In this document: positions 507 through 43,792 of the stretch, in pieces | Position numbering within the stretch: the first letter of the stretch is position 1 | Layout: each line of letters starts with the position of its first letter | Assembly (NCBI GenBank): GCA_013813435.1 | Contig: JACCRS010000194.1 | Span: 1-44,056 of the forward strand | Source of the DNA: Gemmatimonadales bacterium | GTDB taxonomy: Bacteria; Gemmatimonadota; Gemmatimonadetes; Gemmatimonadales; GWC2-71-9 | Direction: 5' to 3' | DNA length: 44,056 nucleotides | The notes under the pieces: model-generated | Told to the model about the DNA's origin: nothing | What the model saw: the letters and a program-made list of their open reading frames with translations, nothing else | The model's database searches: none | Translations under genes and position numbers: made by a program

Positions 507-513
507 GCGGGCG

Positions 514-2131: not shown

Positions 2132-2133
2132 CG

Positions 2134-2409: not shown

Positions 2410-2414
2410 ACGCG

Positions 2415-2861: not shown

Positions 2862-2896
2862 GCCCGCGAGGCATTGCGAGCCTGCCGGATACATAC

Positions 2897-4210: not shown

Positions 4211-4211
4211 C

Positions 4212-4310
4212 AGCGTGAGCGGTAAGCAGTAAGCAGTGAGCGGGGGCGGCCGGTAGAATTCATGACGGGCCGCCCCGCTTACCGTTCACCGCTTACCGCT
4301 TACGCTTTTT
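4212..4310. repeat. Heptamer inverted-repeat element A, terminator-like
   Basis: Left arm 4212-4251 holds four consecutive 7-nt units (GTGAGCG, GTAAGCA, GTAAGCA, GTGAGCG) plus a GGCGGCC block. Right arm 4268-4306 holds the complements of GTAAGCG, GTAAGCG, GTGAACG, GTAAGCG and GGGCGGCC. The arms pair over about 39 bases with few mismatches, mostly G-U compatible in RNA. The right arm runs into TTTTT, the layout of an intrinsic terminator on the plus strand. It sits one base after the secY stop and ten bases before adk, inside an otherwise continuous operon. Confidence 0.85.
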
Positions 4311-4319
4311 CGGAGTCAC

Positions 4320-4883
4320 ATGGATATCCTGTTGATGGGCCCACCCGGTGCCGGGAAGGGCACCCAGGGCGCGTTGCTCGCTGAAGCTCGAGGCATGCCC
4401 AAATTCGCCACCGGCGACCTGTTGCGCGACGCGGTGAAGCGGGGCACGCCGCTCGGCCTTCAGGCGAAGGAGCTCATGGAGGCGGGTCATCTGGTGAGCG
4501 ATGACCTGATCCTGGGAATCGTTCGGGAGGAGCTCAGCAAGCCTGCGGCGGGCAAGGGAGTAATCTTCGATGGGGTGGTACGAACCATCCCGCAGGCGGA
4601 GGGCGTGGAGCGTCTGCTCGCAGAGCAGGGTCGCAGCATGAGCGCAGTATTGTTCTTTGATGTCTCCGATGACGAGATTCTGGCCCGCCTCGCCAAACGA
4701 CGCGAGATCGAGAGTCGTGCCGACGACGACCCGCAGGCTGTGGCCATTCGTCTTAAGGCGTATCGCAAGCAAACTGCCCCGGTGCTCGATTGGTATGAGG
4801 ATCGGAAGCTGGTACACCATATCCCGGCGGTTGGTTCAGTATCGGAGATCGCCGAAAAAGTCAGCCGGGTGCTTGGCAAATAA
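4320..4883 (+). CDS. adk: Adenylate kinase, short-LID type
   Basis: Catalyses ATP + AMP to 2 ADP in the cytoplasm. The P-loop GPPGAGKGT is at residues 7-15 and ATGDLLRD of the AMP-binding lid follows at about 31. The 187-residue length and the direct RLAKRRE...RADDDP...RLKAYRKQT segment show the short form with no zinc-finger LID insertion. The usual FDGFPRT signature reads FDGVVRT here; the Arg is kept. ATG is right after a T-rich element and GGAG lies at 4311-4314. It is followed by map after 2 bases, the common secY-adk-map order. Confidence 0.96.
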   Translation: MDILLMGPPGAGKGTQGALLAEARGMPKFATGDLLRDAVKRGTPLGLQAKELMEAGHLVSDDLILGIVREELSKPAAGKGVIFDGVVRTIPQAEGVERLLAEQGRSMSAVLFFDVSDDEILARLAKRREIESRADDDPQAVAIRLKAYRKQTAPVLDWYEDRKLVHHIPAVGSVSEIAEKVSRVLGK

Positions 4884-4885
4884 AC

Positions 4886-5638
4886 ATGATCACCCTGAAG
4901 TCTCCCCGGGAGATTGACATAATGGGCCGAGCCGGCCGGATCGTGGCGGGCACATTGGCCCGCATGAGAGAGGTCCTGCGCCCGGGTATGAGCACCGAAG
5001 ACCTCGACTCCGAGGCGGAGCGCTTCATCCGGAGTCATGACGGAGCGGTTCCCTCTTTCAAGGGACTTTACGGATTTCCCAAGACCCTGTGCACGTCCAT
5101 CGACGAGGAGATCGTACACGGGATTCCATCGTCCAACAGGGTCCTGGAGGAGGGAAGCATCGTAAGCGTCGACGTGGGCGTCCAGCTTGAAGGTCTGCAC
5201 GCCGACTCGGCAATGACGCTTCCCGTCGGCCGAGTTACACCCGAGGTGGAGCGTTTGTTACGGGTCACCCAGGAATCCCTCACCGCGGGGATTGCGGCGG
5301 CCCGGCTGGGTAACCACGTCGGCGACATCGGCTATGCGGTGCAGAAAGTGGCGGAAGGTGCGGGATACGGAGTGGTGCGTGAGCTGGTAGGCCACGGCAT
5401 CGGAACCCAGTTTCACGAGGAGCCCCAAGTCCCCAATTACGGCCGGCCCAAACGGTTGGCCCGCCTCCTAGAGGGCATGACCCTGGCCATCGAACCCATG
5501 ATTACCATGGGCAGCCCCACAACCAGGACGCTCGCGGACAAGTGGACCGTGGTGACGTCAGACGGGAGCTTGTCGGCCCATTTCGAACATACCGTTGTGA
5601 TCACCGCCCAGGGACCGAGGATCCTGACCGCGCACTGA
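4886..5638 (+). CDS. map: Methionine aminopeptidase, type I
   Basis: Removes the initiator methionine from nascent proteins in the cytoplasm. At 250 residues it is the standard single-domain type I form. All five metal ligands of the pita-bread fold are visible: D96, D107, H170, E203 and E234. H78 (VHGIP) is the conserved substrate-side histidine. The ATG is 2 bases after the adk stop. This is the last plus-strand gene of the ribosomal block: the next genes are on the minus strand, so infA, rpmJ, rpsM, rpsK, rpsD and rpoA, which often follow, are not here. Confidence 0.97.
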   Translation: MITLKSPREIDIMGRAGRIVAGTLARMREVLRPGMSTEDLDSEAERFIRSHDGAVPSFKGLYGFPKTLCTSIDEEIVHGIPSSNRVLEEGSIVSVDVGVQLEGLHADSAMTLPVGRVTPEVERLLRVTQESLTAGIAAARLGNHVGDIGYAVQKVAEGAGYGVVRELVGHGIGTQFHEEPQVPNYGRPKRLARLLEGMTLAIEPMITMGSPTTRTLADKWTVVTSDGSLSAHFEHTVVITAQGPRILTAH

Positions 5639-5653
5639 CAATCTTCGGTGCCT

Positions 5654-6322
5654 TCAGCCCACCCGATCCTCCAGTAGCTGCTGCACCCGCAACTCCGACG
5701 CCTCCACCTGTTCCAGCGCCACCCACGCCGAATCGATCAGCGGGCGAGCTTCCTCGGGCCATCGAGCCGCTTTCAGATTGCTCCGAATACTCCAGTAAGC
5801 GCTCCGGCCGGTTGCGGCGGCCAGCAGGCCTGCTGAGGCGGCGTCGCCGATGGCAGTCGCCAGGCCAGAACCGGCCATTGCCTCGGCCAGGTCCGCCACC
5901 TCCGATGCCTGGTGGAGAAGCTCCAGCTGAATTCTGGCCGCCTCGATTAGCGCCGTGCGCTTGGCCGCTTCCCGGGCGGTTCGCTCGAACTCGGTGCCCT
6001 GGGGCAGGCTGAGCGCGTCCATATACTCCGCCACGGCCGCCGCATCCAGCGTTGCCATATCCAGCAGATCCCTGCGCAGCTGCTCGGCCCGCCGAAGGGT
6101 CTCACGGGCATGGTCGTGCACGGCTGCGTACTTCTCCCGGTGCATGGTAAGCCCCGCTACCATGGCCACCAGCGAGGCGGCCAGTGCGGTGGCCAGCGCG
6201 GCGACGGCGCCACCAGCGGGCGTGGAGGTCGCCGCCGCAACCGCGTCGGCCCACTCCTGTATCGAATGCTCAGAGTCGAGTGTGTCTTCCTCGTCCATTC
6301 CGGCTTTCGGTTCAAGAAACAA
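5654..6322 (-). CDS. Cyclodeaminase/cyclohydrolase (FTCD-C fold) family protein
   Basis: A 222-residue, mainly alpha-helical protein resembling the C-terminal domain of formiminotransferase-cyclodeaminase and free-standing FchA methenyl-THF cyclohydrolases. Family features are WADAVAAATSTPAGGAVAALATALAASLVAMVAGLT (N-terminal glycine-rich helix pair), YMDALSLPQGT near residue 105 and a C-terminal ARPLID helix. Likely one-carbon folate chemistry, but the family also contains members of unknown substrate. ATG 6322 is used; a second ATG eight codons inside is also possible. It begins 12 bases after the inositol-monophosphatase-like gene, so the two probably form one operon. Confidence 0.8.
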   Translation of the reverse strand: MFLEPKAGMDEEDTLDSEHSIQEWADAVAAATSTPAGGAVAALATALAASLVAMVAGLTMHREKYAAVHDHARETLRRAEQLRRDLLDMATLDAAAVAEYMDALSLPQGTEFERTAREAAKRTALIEAARIQLELLHQASEVADLAEAMAGSGLATAIGDAASAGLLAAATGRSAYWSIRSNLKAARWPEEARPLIDSAWVALEQVEASELRVQQLLEDRVG

Positions 6323-26070: not shown

Positions 26071-27162
26071 ATGCGCACCTCAAGCGACCTTTTGCCCGAT
26101 TTCACCCTGCCGCCTTTTGCCGGGGCGCCGGAAGCCCGCTTTGCACCCCTGCCTGCGGACGGCGTGCTCCCAGAAGGTTTCTTTTCGACATCGAATCTCC
26201 CCACCTATGTACATGCGGACGGTAAATGGCTCGCCCCAATCAGGCCGCGGATGGATTGCGTGGTAGTCAAACGCCCCAGCCTGCTGGAAACGATCGAGCC
26301 GCGCCGACTTAAGCGGGGCGACATAATCGCCATGGGCGAAGCGGAGGATGGTACCGAAGGCATTGTGGTACACGCTCAGGGATTCCTGGGCGGTGGACAC
26401 GGCGCCAACGAGTTCCGTTTCATGTCCACCGAGGTAAGCCGCGAACGCCCGGTAAACTACGAGGAGCTTGCCGCGCGCCTGGGTGAGGAGAAGCGGAGGC
26501 GAGGATATCTCGTCTGGGTCATAGGGCCGGCCCTGGTACATTCTCGTGCACGGGCCGATTTCGAGTGGTTCATACGGAACGGATACGTTCAGGCCGTACT
26601 GGCCGGAAATGCCGTAGCAGTGCACGATATCGAAGCGGCCGTCTTCGGCACCACGCTGGGTATGAGCAACACCGGCCAGCCCACCGAGGGTGGACACGGG
26701 CTGCACATGCGAGCGATAAATCGCGTGCGTGCCGGCGGCTCCATCGAGCGCGCGGTCGAGACTGGTCTGGTCAAGAGCGGCATCATGCACGCGTTGATTA
26801 CCAGCCGGGTACCCTACGTATTGGCTGGATCCATTCGCGACGACGGCCCCCTTCCCGGGGTGTACAGCGATGCTCTCCAGGCCCAGGATGCCATGCGCGA
26901 GCACACCGTGAAGGCTACCGGAGCAATTTTCGTGGCTACGGCGCTCCACGCCATCGCGGTGGGCAACATGCTGCCGGCATTTTATCTGTGCGACGGAGTT
27001 CCGGCTCCGCTCATGACGATCTGCGTCGACCAGACCGAATTCGTGGTAAACAAACTCAAGGACCGGGGAACCCACCAGGCTTACGGCGTAGTCACTAATG
27101 CGCAGGACTTTATGCACGTGCTGCGGTTCTACACCGAGCGCTGGGAGCAAGCCCCCGCATGA
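26071..27162 (+). CDS. COG1915/TIGR00300-family protein (ornithine cyclodeaminase/arginine dihydrolase-like)
   Basis: A 363-residue protein matching the LOR/SDH-like family found in archaea and cyanobacteria. Diagnostic stretches are NLPTYVHADGKWLAPI (about 44-59), RMDCVVVKRP, GPALVHSRARADFEWFIRNGYVQAVLAGNAVAVHDIEAA, EGGHGLHMRAINRVRAGGSI, LAGSIRDDGPLPGVYSDALQAQDAMRE, LHAIAVGNMLP and VDQTEFVVNKLKDRGT. Relatives act in ornithine cyclodeamination or, as the cyanobacterial ArgZ/AgrE fusions, arginine catabolism. Here the N-terminal LOR/SDH part is short, so activity is uncertain. Divergent from the TonB receptor. It overlaps the next gene (ATGA). Confidence 0.8.
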   Translation: MRTSSDLLPDFTLPPFAGAPEARFAPLPADGVLPEGFFSTSNLPTYVHADGKWLAPIRPRMDCVVVKRPSLLETIEPRRLKRGDIIAMGEAEDGTEGIVVHAQGFLGGGHGANEFRFMSTEVSRERPVNYEELAARLGEEKRRRGYLVWVIGPALVHSRARADFEWFIRNGYVQAVLAGNAVAVHDIEAAVFGTTLGMSNTGQPTEGGHGLHMRAINRVRAGGSIERAVETGLVKSGIMHALITSRVPYVLAGSIRDDGPLPGVYSDALQAQDAMREHTVKATGAIFVATALHAIAVGNMLPAFYLCDGVPAPLMTICVDQTEFVVNKLKDRGTHQAYGVVTNAQDFMHVLRFYTERWEQAPA

Positions 27163-31599: not shown

Positions 31600-33318
31600 T
31601 CAGTACCCCGCCCCTCCTCCTCCCCGTCGCGGATCGGTCACTCCCTGCCAGCCTTGCGACGTGCGCACAATGGCTTCCACGTCTCCCCAGGGTTCCCGGC
31701 TCCAGAGTCCGTGGCCCTTGCCCTCGAGACTATCGAGCGTGGCCGGCAGAAATCCTCCGCCTTCGATTTGCAGGCTGTCCGGCAGCGCCTGGTGGTGGGT
31801 ACGCGGGGCCCGCACGGCTTCGGGCAGAGGCATTCGATGATCGATCACGTTGGAAATGACGTGATAGACCATGGTGATGATCTTGGGCCCCCCGGGCGTA
31901 CCCACGATCATGTACAGTTGCTTTTCCCGGTCCAGCACGATGCTCGGGGTCATCGCAGAGAGCATCCTCTTGCCCGGAGCGATGGCGTTGGCCTCCCCTT
32001 GAACCAGACCGTACATGTTCGGTTCACCTGGCGATGTAGCGAAGTCGTCCATTTCATCGTTCAGCAGGAAGCCTGCTCCGGTCACAGTGACGGCGCTGCC
32101 GTAGCTGTTGTTGAGCGTTGTTGTGCAGCTGACCGCGTTTCCGTCCGCGTCGACGACGGAGTAGTGTGTGGTCGATGAGCCACCTCCGGCACCGGTCTCG
32201 AACCTGGGTGTTACGGAGGCCTGTTCCCCGATCTGTTGCCGCAGCTCCGCCGCGTAATCCTTGGACAACAGCCGCTGCACCGGATTATTGACAAACCCCG
32301 GATCTCCCAGATGACGGTTGCGGTCAGTAAAGGCCCGGCGCATGGCTTCAGCTTCACGATGCATCAACGCGGCCGTGCCGAACGCAGGTAGAGGATCGTA
32401 CCCTTCCATGATGTTGAGGATTTCACCCATGGTGACGCCACCTGACGAGGCTGGTGGCATTGAATAGATGGTGTGGCCCCGGTAGGAAATCTCGATGGGA
32501 TTGCGCCAGATGGCCCGGTAACGGTTCAGGTCGTCATGATCGATCAGCCCATGGCCGCGTACCATCTCAGCCACGATGAGGTCTGCCACCCGTCCGCGGT
32601 AGAATCCCGCGGCACCGCTGTCGCGAACCGCCTCCAGTGTGGCGCCTAGCTCAGGCTGCCGGAAGGTGGAGCCAGTCTCCGGCGGGCGGTCATTGGGTAG
32701 GAATGTCGCCCGAGACGCGGGAAACAGGACCAGCCTTGCACTGTCCTCCCCAATCGAGCTGCTGCGGTACTCGTCAACCAGGAAGCCATCGTACGCCAGG
32801 CCGATCGCCGGCGCGATGACAGTGGAAAACGCTAACCGGCCGAACCTGCGGTGGGCCTCGGTCAGACCGGCCACCGCGCCGGGCACACCCGCCGACAGAT
32901 GACCTGTGACGCTCGCCTCAGGCGCTGCTGAGAGGTACATGTCTCGCGATGCGCGCCCTGGAGCCGTCTCCCGGTAATCGAGCGTCTGCACCCGGCCATC
33001 CGCCAGACGTATGACCATGAAGCCCCCACCACCGATGTTTCCGGCCTCGGGGTGGACCACGGCGAGTGCAAAGCCAACCGCCACCGCCGCGTCCACGGCG
33101 TTGCCGCCCTGGCGGAGGATGTCCCGGCCAACTGCGCTGGCCAGGGGGCTGCCGGACACTACCAGCGCCTTTGAAGCCTCGATTACTCGTGGCGCCCTCA
33201 TATTCCACGTTGGCGCCATGCCGTCGGCGGGCGTGGTGCCGGGAGCTTCAACCCGTCTGGCACATGAAGGCGACAGCACAATCAGGGTCAGTAGCAGACC
33301 GGCGGCGGGTATCTGCAC
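31600..33318 (-). CDS. ggt: Gamma-glutamyltransferase, lipoprotein form
   Basis: Cleaves or transfers gamma-glutamyl groups, for example from glutathione or related peptides, in the periplasm. GTG 33318 is chosen: GGAG is five bases upstream and the protein opens onto a lipobox (LLLTLIVLSPSC). A longer open frame to 33444 would overlap the divergent murQ start. The heavy-chain region has GGNAVDAAVAVGFALAVVHPEAGNIGGGGFMVIRL. The autoprocessing Thr is in GSSTTHYSVVDADGNAV, and the light chain carries NSYGSAV and GFLLNDEMDDF. At 572 residues the length is normal. Its stop is next to element F. Confidence 0.9.
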   Translation of the reverse strand: MQIPAAGLLLTLIVLSPSCARRVEAPGTTPADGMAPTWNMRAPRVIEASKALVVSGSPLASAVGRDILRQGGNAVDAAVAVGFALAVVHPEAGNIGGGGFMVIRLADGRVQTLDYRETAPGRASRDMYLSAAPEASVTGHLSAGVPGAVAGLTEAHRRFGRLAFSTVIAPAIGLAYDGFLVDEYRSSSIGEDSARLVLFPASRATFLPNDRPPETGSTFRQPELGATLEAVRDSGAAGFYRGRVADLIVAEMVRGHGLIDHDDLNRYRAIWRNPIEISYRGHTIYSMPPASSGGVTMGEILNIMEGYDPLPAFGTAALMHREAEAMRRAFTDRNRHLGDPGFVNNPVQRLLSKDYAAELRQQIGEQASVTPRFETGAGGGSSTTHYSVVDADGNAVSCTTTLNNSYGSAVTVTGAGFLLNDEMDDFATSPGEPNMYGLVQGEANAIAPGKRMLSAMTPSIVLDREKQLYMIVGTPGGPKIITMVYHVISNVIDHRMPLPEAVRAPRTHHQALPDSLQIEGGGFLPATLDSLEGKGHGLWSREPWGDVEAIVRTSQGWQGVTDPRRGGGGAGY

Positions 33319-33323
33319 ACGGG

Positions 33324-33327
33324 CTCC
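33324..33327 (-). promoter_or_regulatory. Ribosome binding site for the ggt GTG start
   Basis: GGAG on the minus strand, five bases before GTG 33318. It supports the short start and leaves about 105 bases for promoters between ggt and murQ. Confidence 0.55.
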
Positions 33328-33426
33328 GTGAAAGAGTTGGGTGATCGAGCGGAGTTGCCTGGGGCCTTGCACTTCTCCTAATTTAGCCGGGCGCTGACGC
33401 CTGGATACTCCTATTCTCCTGCTTGT

Positions 33427-34353
33427 GTGGCTGACGACTTCCACGACACGCGCCTGACCGAACGGCGCAATCCGCGCAGTACCACAATCGATGTCGCCTC
33501 CGCTCTCGAGATCGTCGATCTCATCGCGGCCGAAGATGCCGGTGTGCCTGGCGCAGTCGCTAAGGCTCGCTTCGAGATCGCTCGCGCCATCGACCTGATC
33601 GAAGCCGCCTTCCGGGCCGGTGGCCGGCTGATCTACATCGGCGCGGGGACCAGCGGGAGGCTCGGGGTACTCGATGCCGCCGAGTGTCCGCCTACCTTCG
33701 GAACGCCGCCGGAAATGGTGGTCGGAATGATCGCAGGCGGTGCCCCGGCGCTGGTGCGGTCCATCGAGGGGGCGGAAGACGACGTTGCCGCCGCTGAGCG
33801 CGAGCTGAGCTCACTTTGCGTCAGCCACAGCGACGTGGTGGTCGGCATTGCCGCCAGTGGAACAACGCCGTACGTGGGCTCGGCACTCTCCCACGCTCAA
33901 ACGCTCGGCGCCCGCACGATATTTCTATCCTGCTCGGCGCCCCCGCAGCGGCTTCGAGACAGTTGCGATGTATGCATCACCGTCCTGGTGGGCCCCGAGA
34001 TCGTCACCGGGTCTACCCGAATGAAGGCAGGCACCGCCACCAAGCTGGTGCTCAACACCCTGACGACCGGTGCTATGATCCGCATCGGGAAGACGTACGG
34101 CAACCTCATGGTTGACCTGAGAGCGTGGAATGACAAACTGGTGGACCGCAGTCAACGCATCGTCATGGAGGCGGCCGGAGTCGACCGGACGGCAGCCAGG
34201 AGAGCTATGGAGGACGCAGAGGGGAGCGTTAAGACGGCCATCGTAATGGCACGGCGTGGAGTACCGAAGGATGAAGCGGAGCGGCTGTTGGCCGAGCATG
34301 ACGGCAGGCTTCGACCAGTGGTGGGAGATCCTCCTCCGGTGCCGGCAAGATGA
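33427..34353 (+). CDS. murQ: N-acetylmuramic acid 6-phosphate etherase
   Basis: Cleaves the lactyl ether of MurNAc-6-P to give GlcNAc-6-P and D-lactate, a step of peptidoglycan recycling. The 308-residue protein has the SIS-domain motif GRLIYIGAGTSGRLGVLDAAECPPTFG, the catalytic-region GAEDD segment (EGAEDDVAAAE), and ITGSTRMKAGTATKLVLNTLTTGAMI, which are diagnostic of MurQ. GTG start at 33427. It overlaps anmK by ATGA, and anmK overlaps nagZ by GTGA, so three recycling steps are in one operon. Confidence 0.95.
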   Translation: MADDFHDTRLTERRNPRSTTIDVASALEIVDLIAAEDAGVPGAVAKARFEIARAIDLIEAAFRAGGRLIYIGAGTSGRLGVLDAAECPPTFGTPPEMVVGMIAGGAPALVRSIEGAEDDVAAAERELSSLCVSHSDVVVGIAASGTTPYVGSALSHAQTLGARTIFLSCSAPPQRLRDSCDVCITVLVGPEIVTGSTRMKAGTATKLVLNTLTTGAMIRIGKTYGNLMVDLRAWNDKLVDRSQRIVMEAAGVDRTAARRAMEDAEGSVKTAIVMARRGVPKDEAERLLAEHDGRLRPVVGDPPPVPAR

Positions 34354-35462
34354 CCGAGCGCCCTACTCTGGCCGTCGGCCTCATGTCAGGAACCTCGCTC
34401 GACGGTGTGGACGCCGCATTAGTACGGCTCGATGGGCCGACCCATGCCACATTGCTGGATTTCGTTACCCGGCAGTACACCGATACCGAGCGGGCTGAGA
34501 TTCGGGCTGCCTTTAACGGCGCGACAGCCCCGTCTTTGGCGCGTCTGCACGTCCGAGTAGCGGAGTGGGCCGCGGAGGCGGTGCAGACCGTGTTGGTTCG
34601 AGGTAAGGTGCCCGCCTCCGAGCTGTCGTTCATCGCCTTCCCCGGGCAGACGATCTGGCACGAGCCACCGCTCGTTTCGTGGCAGCTCGGCGAGCCGGCG
34701 GTGCTGGCGGAAGAGTTCGGCGTGCGTGTCGTAAGCGGCTTTCGCGCCCGCGATGTTGCCGCCGGTGGCCAGGGAGCCCCTCTCGTGCCCATGGCCGATG
34801 TGCTTCTCTTCGCGTCGCCCGACACACCGCGGATTCTACTCAACCTGGGCGGCATGGCTAACCTCACTTACGTGGAGCGGCGCGCGCAGGAAGCCGGGGT
34901 GCTCGCCTTCGACACCGGTCCCGGTGTTGCGATAATCGACGCCGTGGCACGCATGGTTGACCCCCGCCGCTCTTACGATCGTGACGGCCATATTGCCGCG
35001 CAGGGCACCATCCATGATGACGTGCTCTCGGATCTTCTGGCGGATGAATTCTTCGCTGTTGAGCCGCCCAAGAGCACCGGGCGAGAGCGCTTCGGCGACG
35101 GATACTCCAGCGCCCTGCACGAGCGGGTTCCCGGAGCGGACGGCGTTGCCACCGCGGTGGAGCTAACCGCTCGCACCGTGGCCCACGCTATCGGGCGCTG
35201 GACGCCACCAGGGGTCGAGGTGGTGGCCTCGGGCGGCGGCTGTCATCATCCCGGGCTGATGGCGTCGCTCGCGCGCCACCTGGCCGACCGCGGCAGCCAT
35301 CCACTCCGCCGCTTCGAGGAGCTGTTCTTCCCCGGCGACGCGAAAGAAGCGGTTGCATTCGCGCTCCTGGGTTACCTGACGCTGCATGGACAGCCGGGCA
35401 ACGTTCCGGCTGCCACGGGTGCCGAAGGGTCACGGGTGCTGGGTGCAGTGACTCCACCGTGA
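34350..35462 (+). CDS. anmK: Anhydro-N-acetylmuramic acid kinase
   Basis: Phosphorylates and hydrates 1,6-anhydro-MurNAc to MurNAc-6-P, the substrate of MurQ. The 370-residue protein has LMSGTSLDGVDAALV at residues 11-25, FPGQTIWHEPP and a VVSGFRARDVAAGGQGAPLVP block, then LLNLGGMANLTYV and FDTGPG. The start overlaps the murQ stop (ATGA) and the stop overlaps the nagZ start (GTGA). Confidence 0.95.
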   Translation: MTERPTLAVGLMSGTSLDGVDAALVRLDGPTHATLLDFVTRQYTDTERAEIRAAFNGATAPSLARLHVRVAEWAAEAVQTVLVRGKVPASELSFIAFPGQTIWHEPPLVSWQLGEPAVLAEEFGVRVVSGFRARDVAAGGQGAPLVPMADVLLFASPDTPRILLNLGGMANLTYVERRAQEAGVLAFDTGPGVAIIDAVARMVDPRRSYDRDGHIAAQGTIHDDVLSDLLADEFFAVEPPKSTGRERFGDGYSSALHERVPGADGVATAVELTARTVAHAIGRWTPPGVEVVASGGGCHHPGLMASLARHLADRGSHPLRRFEELFFPGDAKEAVAFALLGYLTLHGQPGNVPAATGAEGSRVLGAVTPP

Positions 35463-36907
35463 CAGGCCCGCAGATGGAATCTGAAAACCCGGCCAGGCTC
35501 ATCATGCCGGCGCTCCGGTCCGATGCCCTGAGCGGGTTCGCTCACGAGGCGGGGCGCATAGCTGACACGCTTGAGATCGGCGTAGGGGGATACATCATCT
35601 TCGGGGGGACTGCGGAGAGTGTGCGCCGCCTGACCGCCGATCTCCTGAGACGAGCGGGCCGTTCCCTCCTGCTGGCTTCGGATCTCGAGCGGGGCGCAGG
35701 CCAGCAAGTTGCAGGACTCACCGAATTCCCTCCTCCGATGGCGCTGGCGTCTTTGCGGGAGCCCGCCGTAGTGCGCTGGGCCGCATCAGTGACGGCACAG
35801 GAGGCGCGCGCCGTGGGCATCAACTGGGTGTTTGCGCCGGTAGCCGATCTCGATGTCCTGCCGGAGAATCCGATCGTCCAGACCCGGGCCTTCGGCGCCA
35901 ACCCGAACGAGGTTGCCACGTATGTGCGCCACTGGGTCGAGGGATGCCAGGCAGCGGGGGCGTTAGCCTGTGCCAAGCACTACCCCGGGCACGGACGAAC
36001 AGCTGTAGACTCCCATGTGGCGCTGCCGGTGGTTGAAGCGCCGGCCGCCGACCTGGAAGTCGATCTGGTACCATTTACTGTGGCCATCCAGAGCGGCGTA
36101 GCCTCGATCATGACGGCGCACGTTGCCTACCCCGCACTCGACGCCTCCGGGCTGCCGGCCACCCTCTCCCAGATCGTGCTCGGCAGGCTGCGCGGTGCCG
36201 GACGATTTGATGGGCTGGTGGTCACCGATGCTCTGATCATGGACGGCGCTCTGATGGGCCGTCGCGAGTCCGATGCAGCGGTAGAAGCCATTCAGGCGGG
36301 GGCAGACCTGCTGCTGTACCCCAATGATGCCCGCCGGGTGCGAGACGCAATCGAGGCCGCACTCTCGAGCGGATCGCTGGGTAAAGAGCGGGTTGGTGAA
36401 TCCCTCCGGCGCTATCATCGGGCGCTGGCAGCCGCCTCAGCGCCCACGCCCCCGGTAACCCGAGGTCCCTACGATTCGGCCAACGCGCTCGCGGACGTGC
36501 TTCTGAAGCAGGGTATGATGGCGGGAAGCTCGGCTCCGACCTTGACGGCACCGCTGGACCTGGTCGTCGTGGATGACGATATCGGTGGTCCGTATTCTCC
36601 CGGCGCCAGCGACTACATTCACCGTGCCCTCGGCAACGACCAGATCGGCCGTTACGGTGGAGGCTCGCGGGTGCTGCTGGTATTCGCCGAGCCAAGGGCT
36701 TGGAAGGGACGCTCAGGCTTTGGGCCGGCTACCAAGGAAGCGCTGGCCCACCATGGGGCGGGAGCCGACCTGATTGTGCTCTTCGGCCACCCGCGCCTCG
36801 CCGACGAGCTGCCGAGTAATGCGCCCGTCCTCCTTGCGTGGCACCGGCAGCGGCTAATGCAGGAGGCCGTGGCGCGCTGGCTGGGTCAACGAGTTGCCAG
36901 CGCCTGA
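35459..36907 (+). CDS. nagZ: Beta-N-acetylglucosaminidase NagZ, with C-terminal GH3 domain
   Basis: GH3 hydrolase that removes GlcNAc from anhydro-muropeptides. The catalytic KHYPGHGRTAVDSH loop is present (general acid His; Asp nearby) and the nucleophile Asp lies in VVTDALIMDGAL. Residues about 1-320 are the TIM barrel. The remaining 160 residues are an extra alpha/beta domain (ALADVLLKQGMM..., LLVFAEPRAWKGRSGF, IVLFGHPRLADEL) like the C-terminal domain of two-domain GH3 enzymes; E. coli NagZ lacks it. No signal peptide, so the site is cytoplasmic. GTG start overlapping anmK. Confidence 0.9.
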   Translation: MTGPQMESENPARLIMPALRSDALSGFAHEAGRIADTLEIGVGGYIIFGGTAESVRRLTADLLRRAGRSLLLASDLERGAGQQVAGLTEFPPPMALASLREPAVVRWAASVTAQEARAVGINWVFAPVADLDVLPENPIVQTRAFGANPNEVATYVRHWVEGCQAAGALACAKHYPGHGRTAVDSHVALPVVEAPAADLEVDLVPFTVAIQSGVASIMTAHVAYPALDASGLPATLSQIVLGRLRGAGRFDGLVVTDALIMDGALMGRRESDAAVEAIQAGADLLLYPNDARRVRDAIEAALSSGSLGKERVGESLRRYHRALAAASAPTPPVTRGPYDSANALADVLLKQGMMAGSSAPTLTAPLDLVVVDDDIGGPYSPGASDYIHRALGNDQIGRYGGGSRVLLVFAEPRAWKGRSGFGPATKEALAHHGAGADLIVLFGHPRLADELPSNAPVLLAWHRQRLMQEAVARWLGQRVASA

Positions 36908-36911
36908 TTAG

Positions 36912-38141
36912 TCAGCTGTTTCGGCTCGCCGTTCTGATCCAGGGAAGGAGGGCAAAAGCCGGAAGGGCCAGCAGGAAGGTGAGAAAGAAGTACCGCCCGT
37001 AGCCCAGGTTTTCCGCCAGAACTCCGGAGGCTCCTCCCGCGAGGGTCCGGCTCAAGGCCAGCAGGGCGGAGAGAACGGCAAACTGAGTTGCGGCATACCG
37101 GCGTTCGCACACGGACATCAGGAAAGCCAGGAAAGCGGCGGTACCTAGGCCGTGGGCGAAGTTCTCGAACAGCGCCGCGCCGATAATCAGCGGCTTCGAG
37201 GCGGGCACGCTGGCTACGGCGGTGTAGCCCAGGCTGGACAACGCCTGTACGATGCCGAGGGTCCATAGCCCACCAAAAATCCCCAACCTCGTCGTGAGCA
37301 ACCCGCCCAGCACCGCTCCGGAAACCGTCGCGATGATGCGACCAGGTGTAAGGATGGCCCCGATTTCCTCCAGGGTGAAGCCACGGTCCACCCAGAAGGG
37401 ACGGGTCATGGGCTCCATGGCGTATATGTCGATCTTGAACAGCAGCGCGAAGGCCGCCACCGCCCAGATACCCGGCCGCGCAAGGAGCGCGCGGAGCGGT
37501 TCCCATATCGACGCCGCCGACACCACCGTGCGCCGGGGCTCGGGAATGAAGAGCGCCGCGACTGCAAGGGCTCCTGTCATGGCGGCGCCTACCAGGAATG
37601 AGGTTGTCCAGCTGGTCCGCCCGGCGAGCCAGATTAAAAGTCCACCTGCCGTGAACATCGCTACCCGGTACGCCGCGATGCGCGCGGAATTCGCGACCCC
37701 CAGCTCGCGCGTGGTAGTTGCCTCGATGGTGTAAGCGTCGATGGCGACATCCTGGGTGGCCGACAGCGTGACCATCAAAACCAGAATCAGCCAGAACCAC
37801 CGCGCCAGCTCGCCTAGCTCCATGGTACCCAGGATCAGGGTAAGGAGCGTCAGGCCGCCCAGGCATGCCACGATCCATTGCCTGCGGCGGCCGATGCGAT
37901 CTACCACCGGAGCCCATATGAACTTGAAGGTCCAGGGAAAGCTGACCGCGCTGATGAGTCCGATCTCCACCAGTCCAGCTCCATGGGTTCGGAGATAGAC
38001 CGGCAGAGTTTCGTTCACCAGACCAAAGGGGAAGCCGGAGGCGAAAGAGAGCGCAGCCAACCAGGTCAGGCGAGTCCGGAGGGGAGAATCCACCCCGGCG
38101 GATTCTTCGTCTTTCGCCCTGCTGGATGGGGTTATCGCCAC
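36912..38141 (-). CDS. AmpG-like MFS muropeptide permease
   Basis: A 409-residue major-facilitator protein with about 12 TM helices. It opens with LSFASGFPFGLVNETLPVYLRTHG, has the MFS loop DRIGRRR, and the TQDVAIDAYTIEATT motif typical of the AmpG branch, which imports GlcNAc-anhydro-muropeptides. AmpG function is inferred from that motif and from the convergent nagZ-anmK-murQ operon; the stops of nagZ and this gene are only 4 bases apart. Cotranscribed with the PP2C gene, whose 3' end overlaps its start by 10 bases. Confidence 0.85.
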   Translation of the reverse strand: MAITPSSRAKDEESAGVDSPLRTRLTWLAALSFASGFPFGLVNETLPVYLRTHGAGLVEIGLISAVSFPWTFKFIWAPVVDRIGRRRQWIVACLGGLTLLTLILGTMELGELARWFWLILVLMVTLSATQDVAIDAYTIEATTTRELGVANSARIAAYRVAMFTAGGLLIWLAGRTSWTTSFLVGAAMTGALAVAALFIPEPRRTVVSAASIWEPLRALLARPGIWAVAAFALLFKIDIYAMEPMTRPFWVDRGFTLEEIGAILTPGRIIATVSGAVLGGLLTTRLGIFGGLWTLGIVQALSSLGYTAVASVPASKPLIIGAALFENFAHGLGTAAFLAFLMSVCERRYAATQFAVLSALLALSRTLAGGASGVLAENLGYGRYFFLTFLLALPAFALLPWIRTASRNS

Positions 38142-39280
38142 ACCGCGAGCAGAAGGAGGAGGACCCCCATGGTGATCAGGATGAGTGCTACGGTGCGGAT
38201 GACGCCGGCCGGTGCTGATGACTCAGAGAGCTCGGGCTCAGGTCCGGCAGGTGGATCGTCTCCCGGCATCACCTCGCCAAGAGCGCCAGGAGCCGGCTCC
38301 GGAGCCAAGGTGGCATCCGCGAGCTGATATCTACTATGGCCCACTCCCTCCGTTCCGTCGGCCTCCGGCAGGCCTTCGCCCTCGAATCGGACTGCGACCA
38401 CTGTGATGTTATCGGGTCCGCCTCGCGCGTTGGCTAGATCGATCAATGCTGAGCAGAGAGCGGGTAGATCAGCGTGCTCCCGGGCCATCTGCGCCAACTC
38501 CTCCCGCCGCACCAGACCCGAGAGACCATCGGAACATAGGATGAGCGTGTCGCCGCGCGTGATAGCCTGGCGAGTGAGGTCCACCTTGACCCGGGGGTCG
38601 GGACCGAGCGCCTGGAGGATGATGTTACGACGCTCGCTCTGCTCCGCTTCGTCCGGGGTGAGCTCGCCTGCATCAACCAGACGTTGCATCAGGCTTTGAT
38701 CTTTGGTGAGCTGAACGGCGTCTGTGCCTCGCACGAGATACGCCCGGCTGTCACCGATCTGGGTGAGGTACAAATCGCGCCCGAAGACGCCGGCAGCAGT
38801 GACGGTGGTGCCCATCCCCCGCACCTCGGGGTGCTCGCGGGCATAGGAGTAGATCTGTCCGTTGGCCAGCTCGACCGCTTCCCGCATGCGGTAGGCGAAC
38901 TGCCCGGGGGTGTCAGCGGCGTCGGTGGCCCAAGCAGTGGCCATATGACGGTAGATCAAGTCCGCCGCCATTGCGCTGGCCAGCTCGCCCGCGGCCGCGC
39001 CTCCCATGCCGTCAGCCACCATGAAGAGCGAGCCTCGCGCGCCGATCTGGTGGCAGCGGACTTCAGGTTGCAGGCTGGCGTTACCTGTGCTCAGGTCGGC
39101 GACAAGAAAGGTGTCTTCGTTGTGCTCGCGGGTGCGGCCGAGATCGGTCTTGCCGAAGACGGAAACCTGCACCGGGCTCTGAGTCACGCGAAGGTCCCTT
39201 CCGCCGGTTATGGCGGTTCGAGGTCTGACGAATTTATGAAGCACCGGTAAGAGCGTCAACGCCGTCTTGGCGTAAGTCAT
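38132..39280 (-). CDS. Membrane-anchored PP2C-type Ser/Thr phosphatase
   Basis: A 382-residue Mn/Mg-dependent protein phosphatase. The catalytic core (about 45-285) has TDLGRTREHNEDTFL, FMVADGMGG, MGTTVTAAG, IGDSRAYL, ILCSDGLSGLV and GGPDNITVV, all PP2C landmarks including the metal-binding aspartates. An acidic/Pro-rich linker and one C-terminal TM helix (VIRTVALILITMGVLLLLLAVW) anchor it. The N-terminal 40 residues (MTYAKTALTLLPVLHKF...) are not conserved. ATG 39280 is used, but a later start is possible because the divergent amidase begins 8-23 bases away. No partner kinase lies in the window. It is in one operon with the AmpG-like permease. Confidence 0.88.
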   Translation of the reverse strand: MTYAKTALTLLPVLHKFVRPRTAITGGRDLRVTQSPVQVSVFGKTDLGRTREHNEDTFLVADLSTGNASLQPEVRCHQIGARGSLFMVADGMGGAAAGELASAMAADLIYRHMATAWATDAADTPGQFAYRMREAVELANGQIYSYAREHPEVRGMGTTVTAAGVFGRDLYLTQIGDSRAYLVRGTDAVQLTKDQSLMQRLVDAGELTPDEAEQSERRNIILQALGPDPRVKVDLTRQAITRGDTLILCSDGLSGLVRREELAQMAREHADLPALCSALIDLANARGGPDNITVVAVRFEGEGLPEADGTEGVGHSRYQLADATLAPEPAPGALGEVMPGDDPPAGPEPELSESSAPAGVIRTVALILITMGVLLLLLAVWR

Positions 39281-39302
39281 AGCCGCCGTGTACCTTGCAG
39301 CT

Positions 39303-41459
39303 ATGCCTGTCTGTCGCTTCTTCGGCTGGGCGTCGTGGCTCCTCGCCAGCGCCTTTGCCTGTTCCCCCCAGTCCGATCCCTCCCCCGCTCCCAGCAGCGC
39401 GGCATTGCGCCAAACAGCGACTTCCGACTCGGTCATGCGCCGGTCCGAGTTGGCCGCGGTGCCCGCAGTGCGGGACCTGATCGGACTTCGCGTGGTTTAT
39501 CCATTGCCAAGCGATGTCGTTCGCGCCCGTGACTCCAGTTTTCTGTTCGGCTCAGTGGCCAGCGGGAACACCCGGCTGAGCATCAACGGGCACAGAGTGC
39601 GAGTCTGGCCCAACGGAGCATGGCTCGCCTGGCTCCCGTTACCTCCCGACACTGTGATGCGGTTCCGGATCGAGGCGCACACCTCCAAGGATACCTCCGT
39701 GGTGCTCTACCCGGTCCGCCGGGACAAGGCGTTGGTACCCCGGGAGCTGAACGTGGGAAAGGCGTGGATAGATTCGGTGTCACTCTCACCTCAGGGTCAG
39801 GTATGGCTGCCGCGGAACGAGTATCTCACGCTTTCCGCCCGCGCCGTCGAAGGCGCGGATGTACGGGTACGCCTGCCGGACGGGAGGCGGATACAACTTC
39901 TGCCTCAAAGACAAGCGCAGGAGGTGCTGCCGGCACTACGAGCCTTCGATCGGGACACCACAAGGCTCCGAACCCCCGAGGAGGTGAGATATGTGGGGGT
40001 AATACGCGGGCGGCCGATTGGTCCCGACGCCGGCCCGGTTCTGCGCGGGCCCACTGCGGCTCTGGTTGGCGTTCTGGGGAGAGCTGCACTGCGCTGCGTT
40101 ACCGGAATGCCCTGTCCCGCCCCATATGCTGAGTTGGTCTCGCCCGACAGTTCCTGGGCGGCGGTCGAGGTGGCGCTCGGTAGCGACACTGTTCGGCTGC
40201 GCTGGCCCTTGCAAGTGGCCCTGCTCGACACCCTGCCGGTGGTGACCCAGTTCGACGACGACACCGCGGGGCAGGGGAACACCGACAGCCTCACGCCCGG
40301 CCGCGCAACTCCGGGAGGCACCTACGCCTGGTTCTTTCCCACCGGTACCCGGGCCTCGGTAACCGGCCGCATTGGCGACGACCTTCGCATTCGCCTCTCT
40401 CCCAGCTCTGAAGCCTGGGTGCCCGTCTCTGATGCCCTGCCGCTTCCCGCCGGACTCCCCGATCCCTGGGCCGTGGTCGGCCCTGTCACGCTGGCGGCCG
40501 CGCAGGATCGTGCCGTCCTGCGGATTCCGCTGACGCAGCGCGTGCCCTTTCAGGTGGTGGAGAGCGAACGAAGCCTCGATATCACCTTCTACAGCGCAGT
40601 TGGCGATGTGGATTGGATACGCTATGGGTCCGATTCGCTGGTCCGCCGGATGAGCTGGGCCCAAACCCAGCGGCACGAGGTCACTCTTACACTGGAGCTC
40701 GCTTCGCCTCTGTGGGGATATCGGACGAGTTGGAGCCGGAACGACCTGATACTCGAGATTCGTCGACCCCCCCGCCTCACGGCCACCAGTCCGCTGCGCG
40801 GGCGGATAATCGCCCTCGATCCTGGCCACCCACCGCTCGGATCCACCGGTCCCACTGGTTTGCGCGAGGCCGAAGCCAATCTGGCGGTGGCATTCCAGCT
40901 TCGTACCATGTTGGAGGCCGATGGAGCGAGGGTGCTGATGACCCGAACTTCGGATTCGGCAGTGGATCTCTGGCCCCGCGTCGCCATGGCGGAGGAGTCG
41001 GGGGCAGAGCTGCTCGTTTCGATCCACAACAATGCCTTGCCGGACGGGATCAACCCCTTTACCAACAATGGGACCAGCGTATTCTATAATCAGCCCCGCA
41101 GTGTAACCCTTGCCTCAGCGATTCAGCGGTCATTGGTTCGCAGGCTCGGCCTGCCCGACCTGGGAATCGGTCGGGCTGATCTCGCCATCGTTCGCGCCAC
41201 GTGGATGCCATCGGTGCTGGCCGAGGGAATGTTCCTGATCATACCGGAACAGGAGGCGGCATTGCGCACCGCTGAGGGGACTCGGCGGTATGCTCGGGGG
41301 GTGTACGAAGGGATTCGTGGCTTCCTCCAGGACAGGGCCAAACTTCAGGTCCCGGCTGGTGTGGGCCGGCGGGGAGCAGTGGCGTCTCCTAGGGCGAATC
41401 CCTCCTTACCGCGCCGCGCGCCTGCAGCTGGCGCCTCGGACAGCGCTGTCGCCCCATAG
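39303..41459 (+). CDS. N-acetylmuramoyl-L-alanine amidase, lipoprotein with long N-terminal region
   Basis: An Amidase_3 zinc hydrolase that cuts the MurNAc-L-Ala bond. The catalytic domain (about residues 503-690) has LDPGHPPLG (His), GLREAEANLAVA (Glu) and LLVSIHNNALP (His), then the TNNGTSVFYNQP block. It is preceded by an AMIN-like beta domain (about 400-490) and by roughly 370 residues of beta-rich sequence with no recognised family. ATG 39303 opens a lipoprotein signal (WLLASAFAC); an upstream GTG at 39288 is also open. The C-terminal 45 residues are Pro/Ala-rich. Divergent from the PP2C gene with almost no spacer. Confidence 0.85.
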   Translation: MPVCRFFGWASWLLASAFACSPQSDPSPAPSSAALRQTATSDSVMRRSELAAVPAVRDLIGLRVVYPLPSDVVRARDSSFLFGSVASGNTRLSINGHRVRVWPNGAWLAWLPLPPDTVMRFRIEAHTSKDTSVVLYPVRRDKALVPRELNVGKAWIDSVSLSPQGQVWLPRNEYLTLSARAVEGADVRVRLPDGRRIQLLPQRQAQEVLPALRAFDRDTTRLRTPEEVRYVGVIRGRPIGPDAGPVLRGPTAALVGVLGRAALRCVTGMPCPAPYAELVSPDSSWAAVEVALGSDTVRLRWPLQVALLDTLPVVTQFDDDTAGQGNTDSLTPGRATPGGTYAWFFPTGTRASVTGRIGDDLRIRLSPSSEAWVPVSDALPLPAGLPDPWAVVGPVTLAAAQDRAVLRIPLTQRVPFQVVESERSLDITFYSAVGDVDWIRYGSDSLVRRMSWAQTQRHEVTLTLELASPLWGYRTSWSRNDLILEIRRPPRLTATSPLRGRIIALDPGHPPLGSTGPTGLREAEANLAVAFQLRTMLEADGARVLMTRTSDSAVDLWPRVAMAEESGAELLVSIHNNALPDGINPFTNNGTSVFYNQPRSVTLASAIQRSLVRRLGLPDLGIGRADLAIVRATWMPSVLAEGMFLIIPEQEAALRTAEGTRRYARGVYEGIRGFLQDRAKLQVPAGVGRRGAVASPRANPSLPRRAPAAGASDSAVAP

Positions 41460-41482: not shown

Positions 41483-43792
41483 ATGTCTTTCTCGATGCCT
41501 TTGCTCAAAAGTCCTTGGCTTCCTCATCTATCACGCACAGGTCTCCTGAAACTGGCCGGCACCGTTGGAGTCGCGCTCTTGCCGGTTGCTCCACTGGATC
41601 TCCACCCGCAGAGTCCTGAAGAGCGAGTCGCGTTGGAGCGCTTCAGGGACTCAATCGCGGCGACGGCGGATTCGACGGGCCTCCTCACCCTCGAACGCAG
41701 GATGATCGCTTCCGCCAAAGCCGACCGTTCCGATGCCATGATCCATCTCAGGCTGGGTTTTCTGTCGCTCAGGCTCGGTGAGTTGGGCGGACAGGACCAC
41801 TATGACGACGCCGCCTCAGAGTTCCAGTGGGCCATCGACCTTCAGCCATCCTGGCCCTACGCGTGGTATGGAATGGGGCTCGCCGAGTACGGGGTCGGCG
41901 ACTCGCAGATTTCTTTCGTCACCGGTCTGAAGATGATGCTGGGGAAGGACGCACTCACGCGATCGGCCGTGGCCTTCGCAAAGTCTGCGGAGATCGACCC
42001 ATCGTTCATCCGCGGCCTGGTAGACCTGGCTAACACGGCGCTGCGGCAGCGAGTCAACATCAAGTTGGGCGTGGCCCTGGAGGCACTCCGCCGGGCCGCC
42101 CCGACCACCGCAGCGAGCGATGGTCAGGTTCTGCTTGCCCGGGGCAGGGTCGAGCGCGAGGTTGGGGACGGAGACTCTGCTCTCGTGGCGTTCAATGGCT
42201 ACCTGCAGCGGGGAAGCAACCGCGGGCTGGGCCTTCTCGAGGTAGCACGCACCCTCCTCCTGCTCGGCCGCTTCGAAGGTACTGCCCCCTACTTCGAAGG
42301 GGCACAGGAGGATGACTCGGTCAGCGTCAGCGGCTACCGTACAGACCTGGCAACCATCGCGTCGGACAGCGTGCTTGGCGAATTTGATCGGCAGCAGGGG
42401 GCCCGGCGCGCATCATACCTGCGGCGCTTCTGGGGGGAACGCGACCAGACTGACTTGCGCACCGACGGAGAGCGGCTCCGGGAGCATTACCGGCGCCTGT
42501 TCTACGCTCGCAAGAACTTTCAACTCACCGCCAACAACCGGCATTATGACATCGTGGAGCGCTATCGCTCCGGCAGTCGCGATTTTGACGACCGCGGTGT
42601 GATCTACATCCGCCATGGTGAGCCCTCCAGCCGTGCCAGCTACGCCGCACCCGGCCTGGAGCCCAACGAGTCCTGGCGCTACAGCCGCACCGACGGCGAT
42701 CTGATCTTTCACTTCATCGCGCGCGAAGATGTCCAGGACTTCAAACTGGTGGAGAGTTTGTTCGACGTGTTGGGGTTCAGCAGCGCCGTAAGGCTCCAGG
42801 ATCAGGTCAACGGCGTGGGCGACAACGCCGTGGCCGAGCAGTTGATGCTGTCTCGAGAGCAGCTGTCGCCCATTTACCGCAGACTGCAGTCAGCGGGGCG
42901 CGGGAGCACCGGACGCTACCAGAACCAGGAGCGCAGGGCGGGGCAGGAGAGCATAGCGGTGGGGACCAACAGCGATAGCTACGAGCTGCGTTTTCCCAAT
43001 GAGCTCAAGGCAACGTCGGAGGTTCTTGCAGTGGGTCGCGACTCGACTGGCCACCAGGTGCAGATCGCCTACGCCATTGCGGGCTCCAGCCTCGAGCCGG
43101 TCACGGTTACTCGTGGTTACCTCTACAGCATACGCCTTCGTTTCGTGGCGACTGACCAGAAGGGGAAGGTCGTCTCCGCCCTCGACACCACGCGTCATTT
43201 CGTTGCTCCCGAGCGAGTCCCGCCCCAGGAACACCTGGTGGGCCGGGTCGGCACCACGGTCCCAGCGGGTTCGCTCCATTACCGCCTTGCCATTCAGCAG
43301 GGCGATGAAGCCGGCATGACGCTGCCGCGAGACACGGTACGCGTGGGACCCGCCGGCTCCGCGGCCCTGGGTCTCAGCGACCTGGTCCTTGGTGCGCGCA
43401 GCACCAACCTCGGCTGGCGGCGCACGCCGGATGACACCGTGCTCTTCAACCCGCTCCGCACCTACAAGCGGAGTGAGGAGATGGAATTGTACTACGAGAT
43501 CGAGGGCCTCCGGCCGGCGCCCTATACCGTCGAGTTGGAGGTGCGCAGGAAAGGCGGCGGCGGTGGCCTCTTCAGGAAAATATTCGGGGGCGGTTCAGCC
43601 GCTATCAAGCTCAAGTTCGACCAGCAGGCCACTGCTACGACGGTCTCGACCCATCGAAGTCTCAAGCTGGATCGGTTGAAGCCAGGAATGTATGTCTTAC
43701 AGTTGCTGGTGGTGGATGCCGCGGGGCGGAAGGATTACCGAACCCGGGAGTTCCAGGTGGTGGAGGACGCTAAACGTGAGCGGGCAAGTTAA
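41483..43792 (+). CDS. GWxTD-domain protein with N-terminal TPR-like repeats
   Basis: A 769-residue protein, probably exported: a hydrophobic segment at about 20-38 (LLKLAGTVGVALLPVAPL). The region 60-300 has helical pairs such as YDDAASEFQWAIDLQPSWPYAWYGMGLAEYGVG, typical of TPRs. The GWxTD-like part holds FDDRGVIYIRHGEPSSRASYAAPGLEPNESWRYSRTDGDLIFHF (about 368-411). Beta-rich domains fill the C-terminal half. Family function is not established. The last residues KRERAS come from repeat element G, whose first unit overlaps the coding end. It follows the amidase by 23 bases. Confidence 0.75.
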   Translation: MSFSMPLLKSPWLPHLSRTGLLKLAGTVGVALLPVAPLDLHPQSPEERVALERFRDSIAATADSTGLLTLERRMIASAKADRSDAMIHLRLGFLSLRLGELGGQDHYDDAASEFQWAIDLQPSWPYAWYGMGLAEYGVGDSQISFVTGLKMMLGKDALTRSAVAFAKSAEIDPSFIRGLVDLANTALRQRVNIKLGVALEALRRAAPTTAASDGQVLLARGRVEREVGDGDSALVAFNGYLQRGSNRGLGLLEVARTLLLLGRFEGTAPYFEGAQEDDSVSVSGYRTDLATIASDSVLGEFDRQQGARRASYLRRFWGERDQTDLRTDGERLREHYRRLFYARKNFQLTANNRHYDIVERYRSGSRDFDDRGVIYIRHGEPSSRASYAAPGLEPNESWRYSRTDGDLIFHFIAREDVQDFKLVESLFDVLGFSSAVRLQDQVNGVGDNAVAEQLMLSREQLSPIYRRLQSAGRGSTGRYQNQERRAGQESIAVGTNSDSYELRFPNELKATSEVLAVGRDSTGHQVQIAYAIAGSSLEPVTVTRGYLYSIRLRFVATDQKGKVVSALDTTRHFVAPERVPPQEHLVGRVGTTVPAGSLHYRLAIQQGDEAGMTLPRDTVRVGPAGSAALGLSDLVLGARSTNLGWRRTPDDTVLFNPLRTYKRSEEMELYYEIEGLRPAPYTVELEVRRKGGGGGLFRKIFGGGSAAIKLKFDQQATATTVSTHRSLKLDRLKPGMYVLQLLVVDAAGRKDYRTREFQVVEDAKRERAS

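Follow-up and report, generated by a model that had tools for sequence, protein, structure and literature searches.

In Gram-negative bacteria, cell-wall sugars are recycled along the AmpG-NagZ-AnmK-MurQ route, and in Bacillus subtilis a NamZ-NagZ-AmiE route operates. It is from Gram-positive bacteria that links of Ser/Thr phosphorylation with the wall are best known; there, PknB/PrkC-Stp modules, made of a Hanks kinase and a PP2C phosphatase, act on wall growth. The membrane-anchored serine protease MarP, in turn, acts on the hydrolase RipA. The locus described here lies on a contig of 44,056 nt from a Gemmatimonadales bacterium (JACCRS010000194.1; C111 in our coding), and this whole stretch, which is one contig of a 255-contig, 2.86-Mb assembly (G000), is called the window. 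It is a peptidoglycan-recycling island in which the gene for a PP2C-type phosphatase stands next to one for an AmpG-like permease. The recycling chemistry is already known; what is new is the linkage of recycling genes with a phospho-signalling cassette, and no published description of this locus was found in the open-licence literature. The account that we hold with moderate confidence is that the island itself is a standard one, and that its PP2C remains from an older phospho-signalling cassette, AmpG now standing in the slot of that cassette's protease.

Compared with Gram-negative recycling, all four steps are present, three of the enzymes are encoded in an overlapping run and AmpG adjoins them, but the window's NagZ is of the two-domain GH3 type, its AmpG is divergent, and in a set of 61 genomes, made up of the window's own and those of 60 relatives, AmpG is found in only 19 and AnmK in 54. 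The likeness to PknB/PrkC-Stp modules lies in a PP2C of Stp1/IreP type, whose 227 bits fall 3 under the cut-off of 230 for NF033484, in an adjoining kinase in many relatives, and in the wall genes around it. The differences from those modules are these: neither of the two cassette kinases that were scanned gives a PASTA match, the relatives' cassette also contains a double-FHA protein and a membrane protease of FHA-HtrA-like type, and the window's locus contains neither a kinase nor an FHA gene. The relatives' protease resembles MarP/DegS-type proteases in its single transmembrane (TM) helix, seen by eye, and its HtrA-like protease domain, but a cytoplasmic FHA domain is fused in front of these; no such protein was found in the window.

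Gene order of the locus

The island and its flanks comprise the following genes, each given with the matches on which its name rests.

31600..33444, minus strand: GGT, gamma-glutamyltranspeptidase, divergent from murQ (PF01019, 550 bits; TIGR00066, 486 bits, cut-off 358)
33427..34353, plus strand: MurQ, N-acetylmuramate-6-phosphate etherase (TIGR00274, 371 bits, cut-off 302)
34350..35462, plus strand: AnmK, anhydro-N-acetylmuramic acid kinase (PF03702, 292 bits; NF007148, 393.5 bits, cut-off 387)
35459..36907, plus strand: NagZ-type GH3 beta-N-acetylglucosaminidase with two domains (PF00933, 223.7 bits; invariant residues; model and fold search)
36912..38141, minus strand: AmpG-like muropeptide permease of the major facilitator superfamily, MFS (TIGR00901, 305 bits, cut-off 350; AmpG structure 8zgz, E 2.2e-53)
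38132..39187, minus strand: PP2C-type Ser/Thr phosphatase with C-terminal TM anchor (NF033484, 227 bits, cut-off 230; invariant motifs)
39288..41459, plus strand: Amidase_3 N-acetylmuramoyl-L-alanine amidase (PF01520, 125 bits, cut-off 27; signal-like N-terminus by eye)
41483..43792, plus strand: GWxTD-domain/TPR protein (TIGR04514, 38 bits, cut-off 28; synteny)

Thus, GGT diverges from murQ-anmK-nagZ, which converge on the minus-strand pair PP2C-ampG, and the amidase gene diverges from PP2C. The genes nagZ and ampG stand tail to tail with their stops 4 nt apart, and the contig ends 264 nt past the GWxTD/TPR gene. A first-pass annotation of this DNA had proposed a complete chain of import, NagZ, AnmK and MurQ flanked by GGT and an amidase, and the Pfam and NCBIfam profile searches confirm it, with the reservation that the AmpG-like protein and NagZ score below the curated cut-offs discussed further on. 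The overlaps that it had noticed among the three enzyme genes are also found in the open reading frame ends and start codons, as ATGA between murQ and anmK (34350-34353) and GTGA between anmK and nagZ (35459-35462).

The phosphatase

The window's PP2C ends in one C-terminal hydrophobic helix. In an alignment of 26 sequences that includes it (A1), the DGMGG, GDSR, SDG and DN motifs and the catalytic residues are invariant (26/26); among the invariant residues are D25, D59, D220 and D259, which we take to be metal-binding. Its most plausible start, read by eye, is the GTG at 39187 behind GGAAGGG; a start at 39436 was rejected, as it would run into the start of the amidase gene. Because the catalytic residues are conserved and the gene is kept in all ten genomes (10/10) of the window's genus, the protein is probably an active, membrane-anchored phosphatase of the Stp type.

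A signalling cassette in relatives

The phosphatase was compared across 101 non-redundant Gemmatimonadota PP2C loci, drawn from the 61 genomes and from named genomes that were scanned, the closest named matches to the window's PP2C being from Gemmatimonadota. Eight of the 53 named Gemmatimonadota loci were dropped before counting as duplicates of loci in the other set, and G020 is counted twice, its locus being split over two contigs. The named-genome loci were retrieved via PP2C, and the frequency of PP2C loss is not readable from them; in the set chosen by kinship, G050 (best E 1.7e-40), G057 (2.9e-39) and G060 (3.3e-44) gave no more than weak PP2C matches, as did G011, whose locus is split over contigs. 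Presence in a locus was called by tblastn at 1e-7 within set distances, and AmpG was scored as co-directional downstream of PP2C within 3 kb. For comparison of the flanks, AmpG loci needed at least 1.5 kb upstream (n=12), and loci without AmpG in this slot at least 1.5 kb upstream and at least 2.5 kb downstream (n=63). G039 and G041, in which AmpG neighbours PP2C and faces it, are counted in neither group; G010 and G036, whose AmpG lies at another place, belong to the group without AmpG in the slot. In G022, AmpG and PP2C both lie near contig ends.

In loci without AmpG, PP2C often has a Hanks-type Ser/Thr kinase and a double-FHA protein on one side and the membrane FHA-HtrA-like protease on the other, as identified by Pfam and NCBIfam domain searches in ten examples. 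The full cassette is also present in L125, from a metagenome-assembled genome titled Gemmatimonas phototrophica. In the double-FHA protein (FHA2), two FHA domains accompany a double zinc ribbon. Both scanned cassette kinases are nearest to the PknB type (353 and 279, below the cut-off of 450) and show, by eye, a zinc-ribbon motif and a TM segment. The FHA-protease, located downstream of PP2C in the six loci scanned and in L035, has an FHA domain followed by a TM helix seen by eye, then long helices and lastly a trypsin-like domain, and in a model of one such protein (predicted local distance difference test, pLDDT, 79) the protease part finds its best fold matches in HtrA1, DegP and DegS. In loci without AmpG, PP2C and NagZ/AnmK are separated by about 1.4-1.7 kb; a second transporter had been considered for this space and was rejected, since the space encodes the FHA-protease in the examples scanned.

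Among the 63 flank-filtered loci without AmpG, the kinase is present in 43, the FHA-protease in 46 and the double-FHA protein in 41, the double-FHA counts being lower bounds since this gene is located further out than the flank filter. In the 12 AmpG loci, kinase and double-FHA protein are found in none and the FHA-protease in two (G018 and G029). Moreover, neither the double-FHA protein nor the FHA-protease has a match at E 1e-15 in the ten genomes (81-98% complete) of the window's genus, the window's included. The cassette kinase has no match on the window's contig, where PP2C has no kinase beside it; one match (E 1e-70, 44% identical) lies on another contig of the window's genome.

The FHA positions R, S, H and N, presumably ligand-binding, are kept in nearly all complete FHA-proteases. 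With the catalytic columns taken from one automatic alignment, the protease triad is intact in 44 of the 48 kinase-bearing loci (H-D-S 35, H-E-S 9); of the remaining four proteases, two run into contig ends and two have disrupted reading frames. In loci that lack the kinase, three of eight FHA-proteases have an intact triad, four a degenerate one (G016, G018, L139 and L156) and one is cut; where the state of the kinase is unknown, five of six are intact and one is degenerate (L133). These rows are not independent, since G016 and L133 are sisters, and the degenerate triads fall in about three places on the PP2C tree, on branches that are partly weakly supported. Because the triad is mostly intact with the kinase and often degenerate without it, kinase and FHA-protease appear to tend to decay together. 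The His-Glu-Ser triad in place of His-Asp-Ser is seen in G037, G053, G054, L125, L127, L128, L136, L137 and L140.

History of the locus

MurQ, AnmK or NagZ converge on PP2C in 70 of the 75 loci with at least 5 kb downstream, GGT lies downstream of MurQ in 45 of the 56 with at least 7 kb downstream of PP2C, and an amidase match diverges from PP2C in 58 of the 80 loci with 3 kb upstream, the amidase being missed in the other 22, in some surely through divergence. On the PP2C tree, which holds 100 of the 101 loci (one row of <200 residues was excluded), the minimum number of changes is 4 for co-directional AmpG, 11 for the kinase and 10 for the FHA-protease. One may argue that the position is incidental, a general Stp-type PP2C sitting in an old conserved neighbourhood with no functional tie to wall recycling, and for this speak the 17 kinase match rows and three PP2C matches in the window's genome, which make many partners possible, the conserved neighbours without an evident wall role (an ABC transporter and a CcdA-like gene), and the five of 75 loci in which recycling genes are not beside PP2C. 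We nevertheless regard it as unlikely: kinase, FHA2 and FHA-protease vary with the numbers of changes just given for kinase and protease, yet PP2C stays between amidase and recycling genes, a constancy seen in loci that were themselves chosen by PP2C.

Outside Gemmatimonadota, 27 loci (L157 and L159-L184) belong by title to Myxococcota, Deltaproteobacteria and one Rokubacterium. An FHA2-like match lies upstream of PP2C in 18 of these, a kinase match is found in the locus in 8 more, and one has neither; no MurQ or AnmK match was found in any of the 27. Since these outside PP2Cs adjoin FHA2-like genes or kinases without MurQ or AnmK, the comparison suggests that the signalling company of PP2C is older than its link to recycling, though kinases are common. 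In addition, G018 and G029 have no kinase in the locus and show the consecutive genes PP2C, FHA-protease and AmpG, which makes them look like intermediates.

Several observations weigh against the account of a retained PP2C whose protease slot has passed to AmpG. Of the kinase changes on the PP2C tree, at least 11 in number, most occur without AmpG, and the kinase is also missing in 20 of the 63 loci without AmpG; an independent-pairs test of kinase loss against AmpG gain had only 2 pairs (p 0.5-1). Because independent events are too few, we make no claim that the cassette was lost through the gain of AmpG, and replacement of the cassette by AmpG is a description, not a demonstrated exchange. 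Its direction rests on G018 and G029 together with the FHA neighbours of PP2Cs outside the phylum, and the relatives are largely fragmentary assemblies of incomplete genomes. The permease itself scores 305 bits with TIGR00901, its best NCBIfam model, below the cut-off of 350. The AmpG tree, moreover, conflicts with the PP2C tree, G003 and G007 being sisters by PP2C and apart by AmpG.

In G002, G004 and G005, a second zinc-ribbon Ser/Thr kinase lies about 0.7-0.8 kb past the GWxTD gene, and in G013 it is found beyond the amidase; it occurs in eleven further non-redundant loci among the 75 searched, beyond the amidase/GWxTD genes or on that side where no amidase match was seen. The window's genome holds an orthologue (C251:737-2677, 75% identical to that of G004), and the 730 nt that precede its start codon on C251 fit a place just past the window's end, where the relatives would have it. 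This kinase is a candidate partner of the window's PP2C. Locus L101 (G000:C251), 731-2755, contains this orthologous zinc-ribbon Ser/Thr kinase with a TM helix seen by eye. Another kinase, on contig C161 of G002, is 61% identical to the cassette kinase, a similarity like that among cassette kinases, and would count against the account if it were a relocated one. This is unlikely, as it has a different setting and a long, different N-terminus and the genes on its readable side are unrelated, though the contig ends inside it.

Because the slot AmpGs do not follow the PP2C tree, ampG was probably exchanged between lineages within this slot. In the AmpG tree G012 and G013 fall among members of the window's genus, unlike in the PP2C tree, and slot AmpGs as one clade apart from canonical AmpGs have a p of 0.276 in the approximately unbiased (AU) test. 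AmpG genes of one genus are split into separate groups with those of other genera.

Linkage of PP2C and ampG

AmpG is co-directional behind PP2C in 15 of the 101 loci. Conservation of this linkage was a check set beforehand, and the linkage is not confined to the window's genome: it spans five genera of the family (group codes g1, g4, g5, g10 and g21) and one Gemmatimonadaceae locus, L141. There is nearly no gap between the two genes in 12 of the 15 (-40 to +7 nt), with the AmpG start extrapolated to residue 1 of the window's protein, a value of -40, for example, not marking a start codon. In the window, AmpG read from its most upstream GTG (38141) shares 10 nt with the end of PP2C (stop at 38132); alignments with homologues often begin only at residue 8-24, so that the actual start may be further downstream. 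Because of this spacing, a PP2C-ampG operon is likely. The first-pass annotation had placed AmpG in an operon with a membrane-anchored PP2C; the C-terminal TM anchor stands, and the operon is inferred from strand and spacing only.

The anchor is found in all 15 loci with AmpG in the slot and in 70 of the 83 without. The further proposal that phospho-control is tied to AmpG is not supported in that form, as PP2C with its anchor occupies the same locus without AmpG, often beside the kinase and FHA proteins. AmpG is not the phosphatase's usual partner, and it is the whole locus, not AmpG, that suggests a link between phospho-signalling and wall turnover. A stronger version, in which PP2C directly controls AmpG or the recycling enzymes and dephosphorylation tunes muropeptide flux, hence the one operon, would fit the near-absence of a gap in 12 loci and the spread of the linkage over five genera and L141. 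It appears quite improbable to us, given that most of the 101 loci hold a similarly anchored PP2C but no AmpG in the slot, and that the slot AmpG genes have their own history.

Proposed role of the locus

As judged from what is known of the families, AmpG would import N-acetylglucosamine (GlcNAc)-anhydro-N-acetylmuramic acid (anhMurNAc) (peptides), NagZ would remove GlcNAc, AnmK would yield N-acetylmuramic acid (MurNAc)-6-P and MurQ GlcNAc-6-P, and the amidase and GGT would trim released material. The cassette of double-FHA protein, Hanks kinase, PP2C and membrane FHA-HtrA-like protease, which we take to be the older state, is found in many Gemmatimonadota with the amidase on one side and the recycling genes on the other. 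From the locus in the window's genus the cassette arm seems to be gone, with AmpG in the protease slot and co-directional with PP2C. The phosphatase probably still dephosphorylates targets of membrane-proximal Ser/Thr kinases, perhaps those of the second zinc-ribbon kinase, and co-transcription with AmpG would couple phosphatase dose to import capacity. The locus is a hint of control over wall turnover by protein phosphorylation in these bacteria.

A more elaborate and doubtful proposal, which we put forward tentatively, is a relay in which kinase and PP2C set a phospho-threonine that the cytoplasmic FHA domain of the protease would sense, and the HtrA-like part, on the periplasmic side, would act on the amidase encoded divergently from PP2C, keeping hydrolysis in step with recycling. 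Lineages of the window's type would then have lost the arm of kinase and protease, and their remaining PP2C would have become tied to AmpG. With kinase, phosphatase, FHA-protease fusion, amidase and recycling enzymes side by side, the arrangement is a testable case outside Gram-positive bacteria, and it is widespread in Gemmatimonadota.

AmpG and NagZ

The permease is named AmpG-like because the TIGR00901 cut-off is not reached; that cut-off is passed in only 3 of the 61 genomes, the 19 with AmpG being those with any match in protein or family search, the window's included. Its scores are also below both AmpG equivalog cut-offs, as might be expected of a transporter for another substrate (siderophore or acetyl-CoA-like) that does not import muropeptides. 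Such a function is highly improbable, however: the next NCBIfam family, RhtX/FptX, reaches 137 bits against 305, solved AmpG structures match at E 2e-53 and 2e-52 and the next family (acetyl-CoA transporter) at 1e-7, the motifs FASGFP and SATQDVAIDA are kept (matched by eye; A197 was not placed), and the gene lies beside nagZ. The FA.G.P and S-A-T-Q-D..ID motifs are reported to be conserved in AmpGs and include G29, A129 and Q131 of P. aeruginosa, and some mutations at these positions cost function, most changes of Q131 being tolerated (PMC5154545). The earlier naming of the MFS protein as AmpG-like is thus upheld, the clustering with exporters that was checked for not being seen. An exporter was rejected on the NCBIfam ranking and the AmpG structure matches.

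NagZ reaches 157.6 bits with the single-domain equivalog NF003740, below its cut-off of 207, and a Pfam profile search of the window's protein calls no GH3_C domain. Its AlphaFold model (pLDDT 92.6) matches two-domain GH3 N-acetylglucosaminidases over its whole length, among them 3sql (TMq 0.85) and B. subtilis NagZ, 3bmx (0.76). Because of this full-length match, the extra C-terminal domain claimed in the first-pass annotation is, on the model, real, though Pfam calls none. In addition to the GH3 fold, D184 and D257 are invariant in an alignment of 16 sequences (A2) and H186 is nearly so; we take D257 to be the Asp nucleophile and D184/H186 the D-x-H dyad. No signal peptide was seen by eye in the window's NagZ.

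A second wall-sugar locus

AnmK is encoded in 35 of the 42 genomes without an AmpG match, which raises the question of how such genomes import wall sugars. A second locus in the window's genome (L082, G000:C61:2000-8000), at 173-5999, contains NamZ and, in a run, GH3, beta-lactamase-family and sodium:solute symporter genes; by eye, the N-terminus of the GH3 enzyme is signal-like, and its GH3_C match stays below the threshold. It resembles the B. subtilis NamZ-NagZ-AmiE system in its NamZ, GH3 and beta-lactamase-like proteins, but a symporter replaces the phosphotransferase system and the locus accompanies the AmpG route rather than replacing it. In the regions around the second GH3 gene of 20 relatives (tblastn 1e-10), NamZ is matched in 15, the beta-lactamase-like gene in 11 and the symporter in 11, of which only seven exceed 50% identity and four are at 27-28%; the second GH3 gene stands alone in G043, G045, G047 and G058. 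As speculation, this locus might be the import route of genomes with AnmK and without AmpG.

Neighbouring genes

An enzyme encoded at 19 kb, which had been called a dipeptide epimerase, belongs to the MLE family and does not reach the curated cut-offs of the specific functions, scoring 249 for DgcA (cut-off 400) and 154 and 145 for L-Ala-D/L-Glu epimerase (cut-offs 343 and 500). At 26071-27162 on the plus strand, the window encodes a protein with an ArgZ-like C-terminal Rossmann domain (PF21570, 252 bits), and this gene lies upstream of Fur-like and CcdA-like genes, the last two named by eye.

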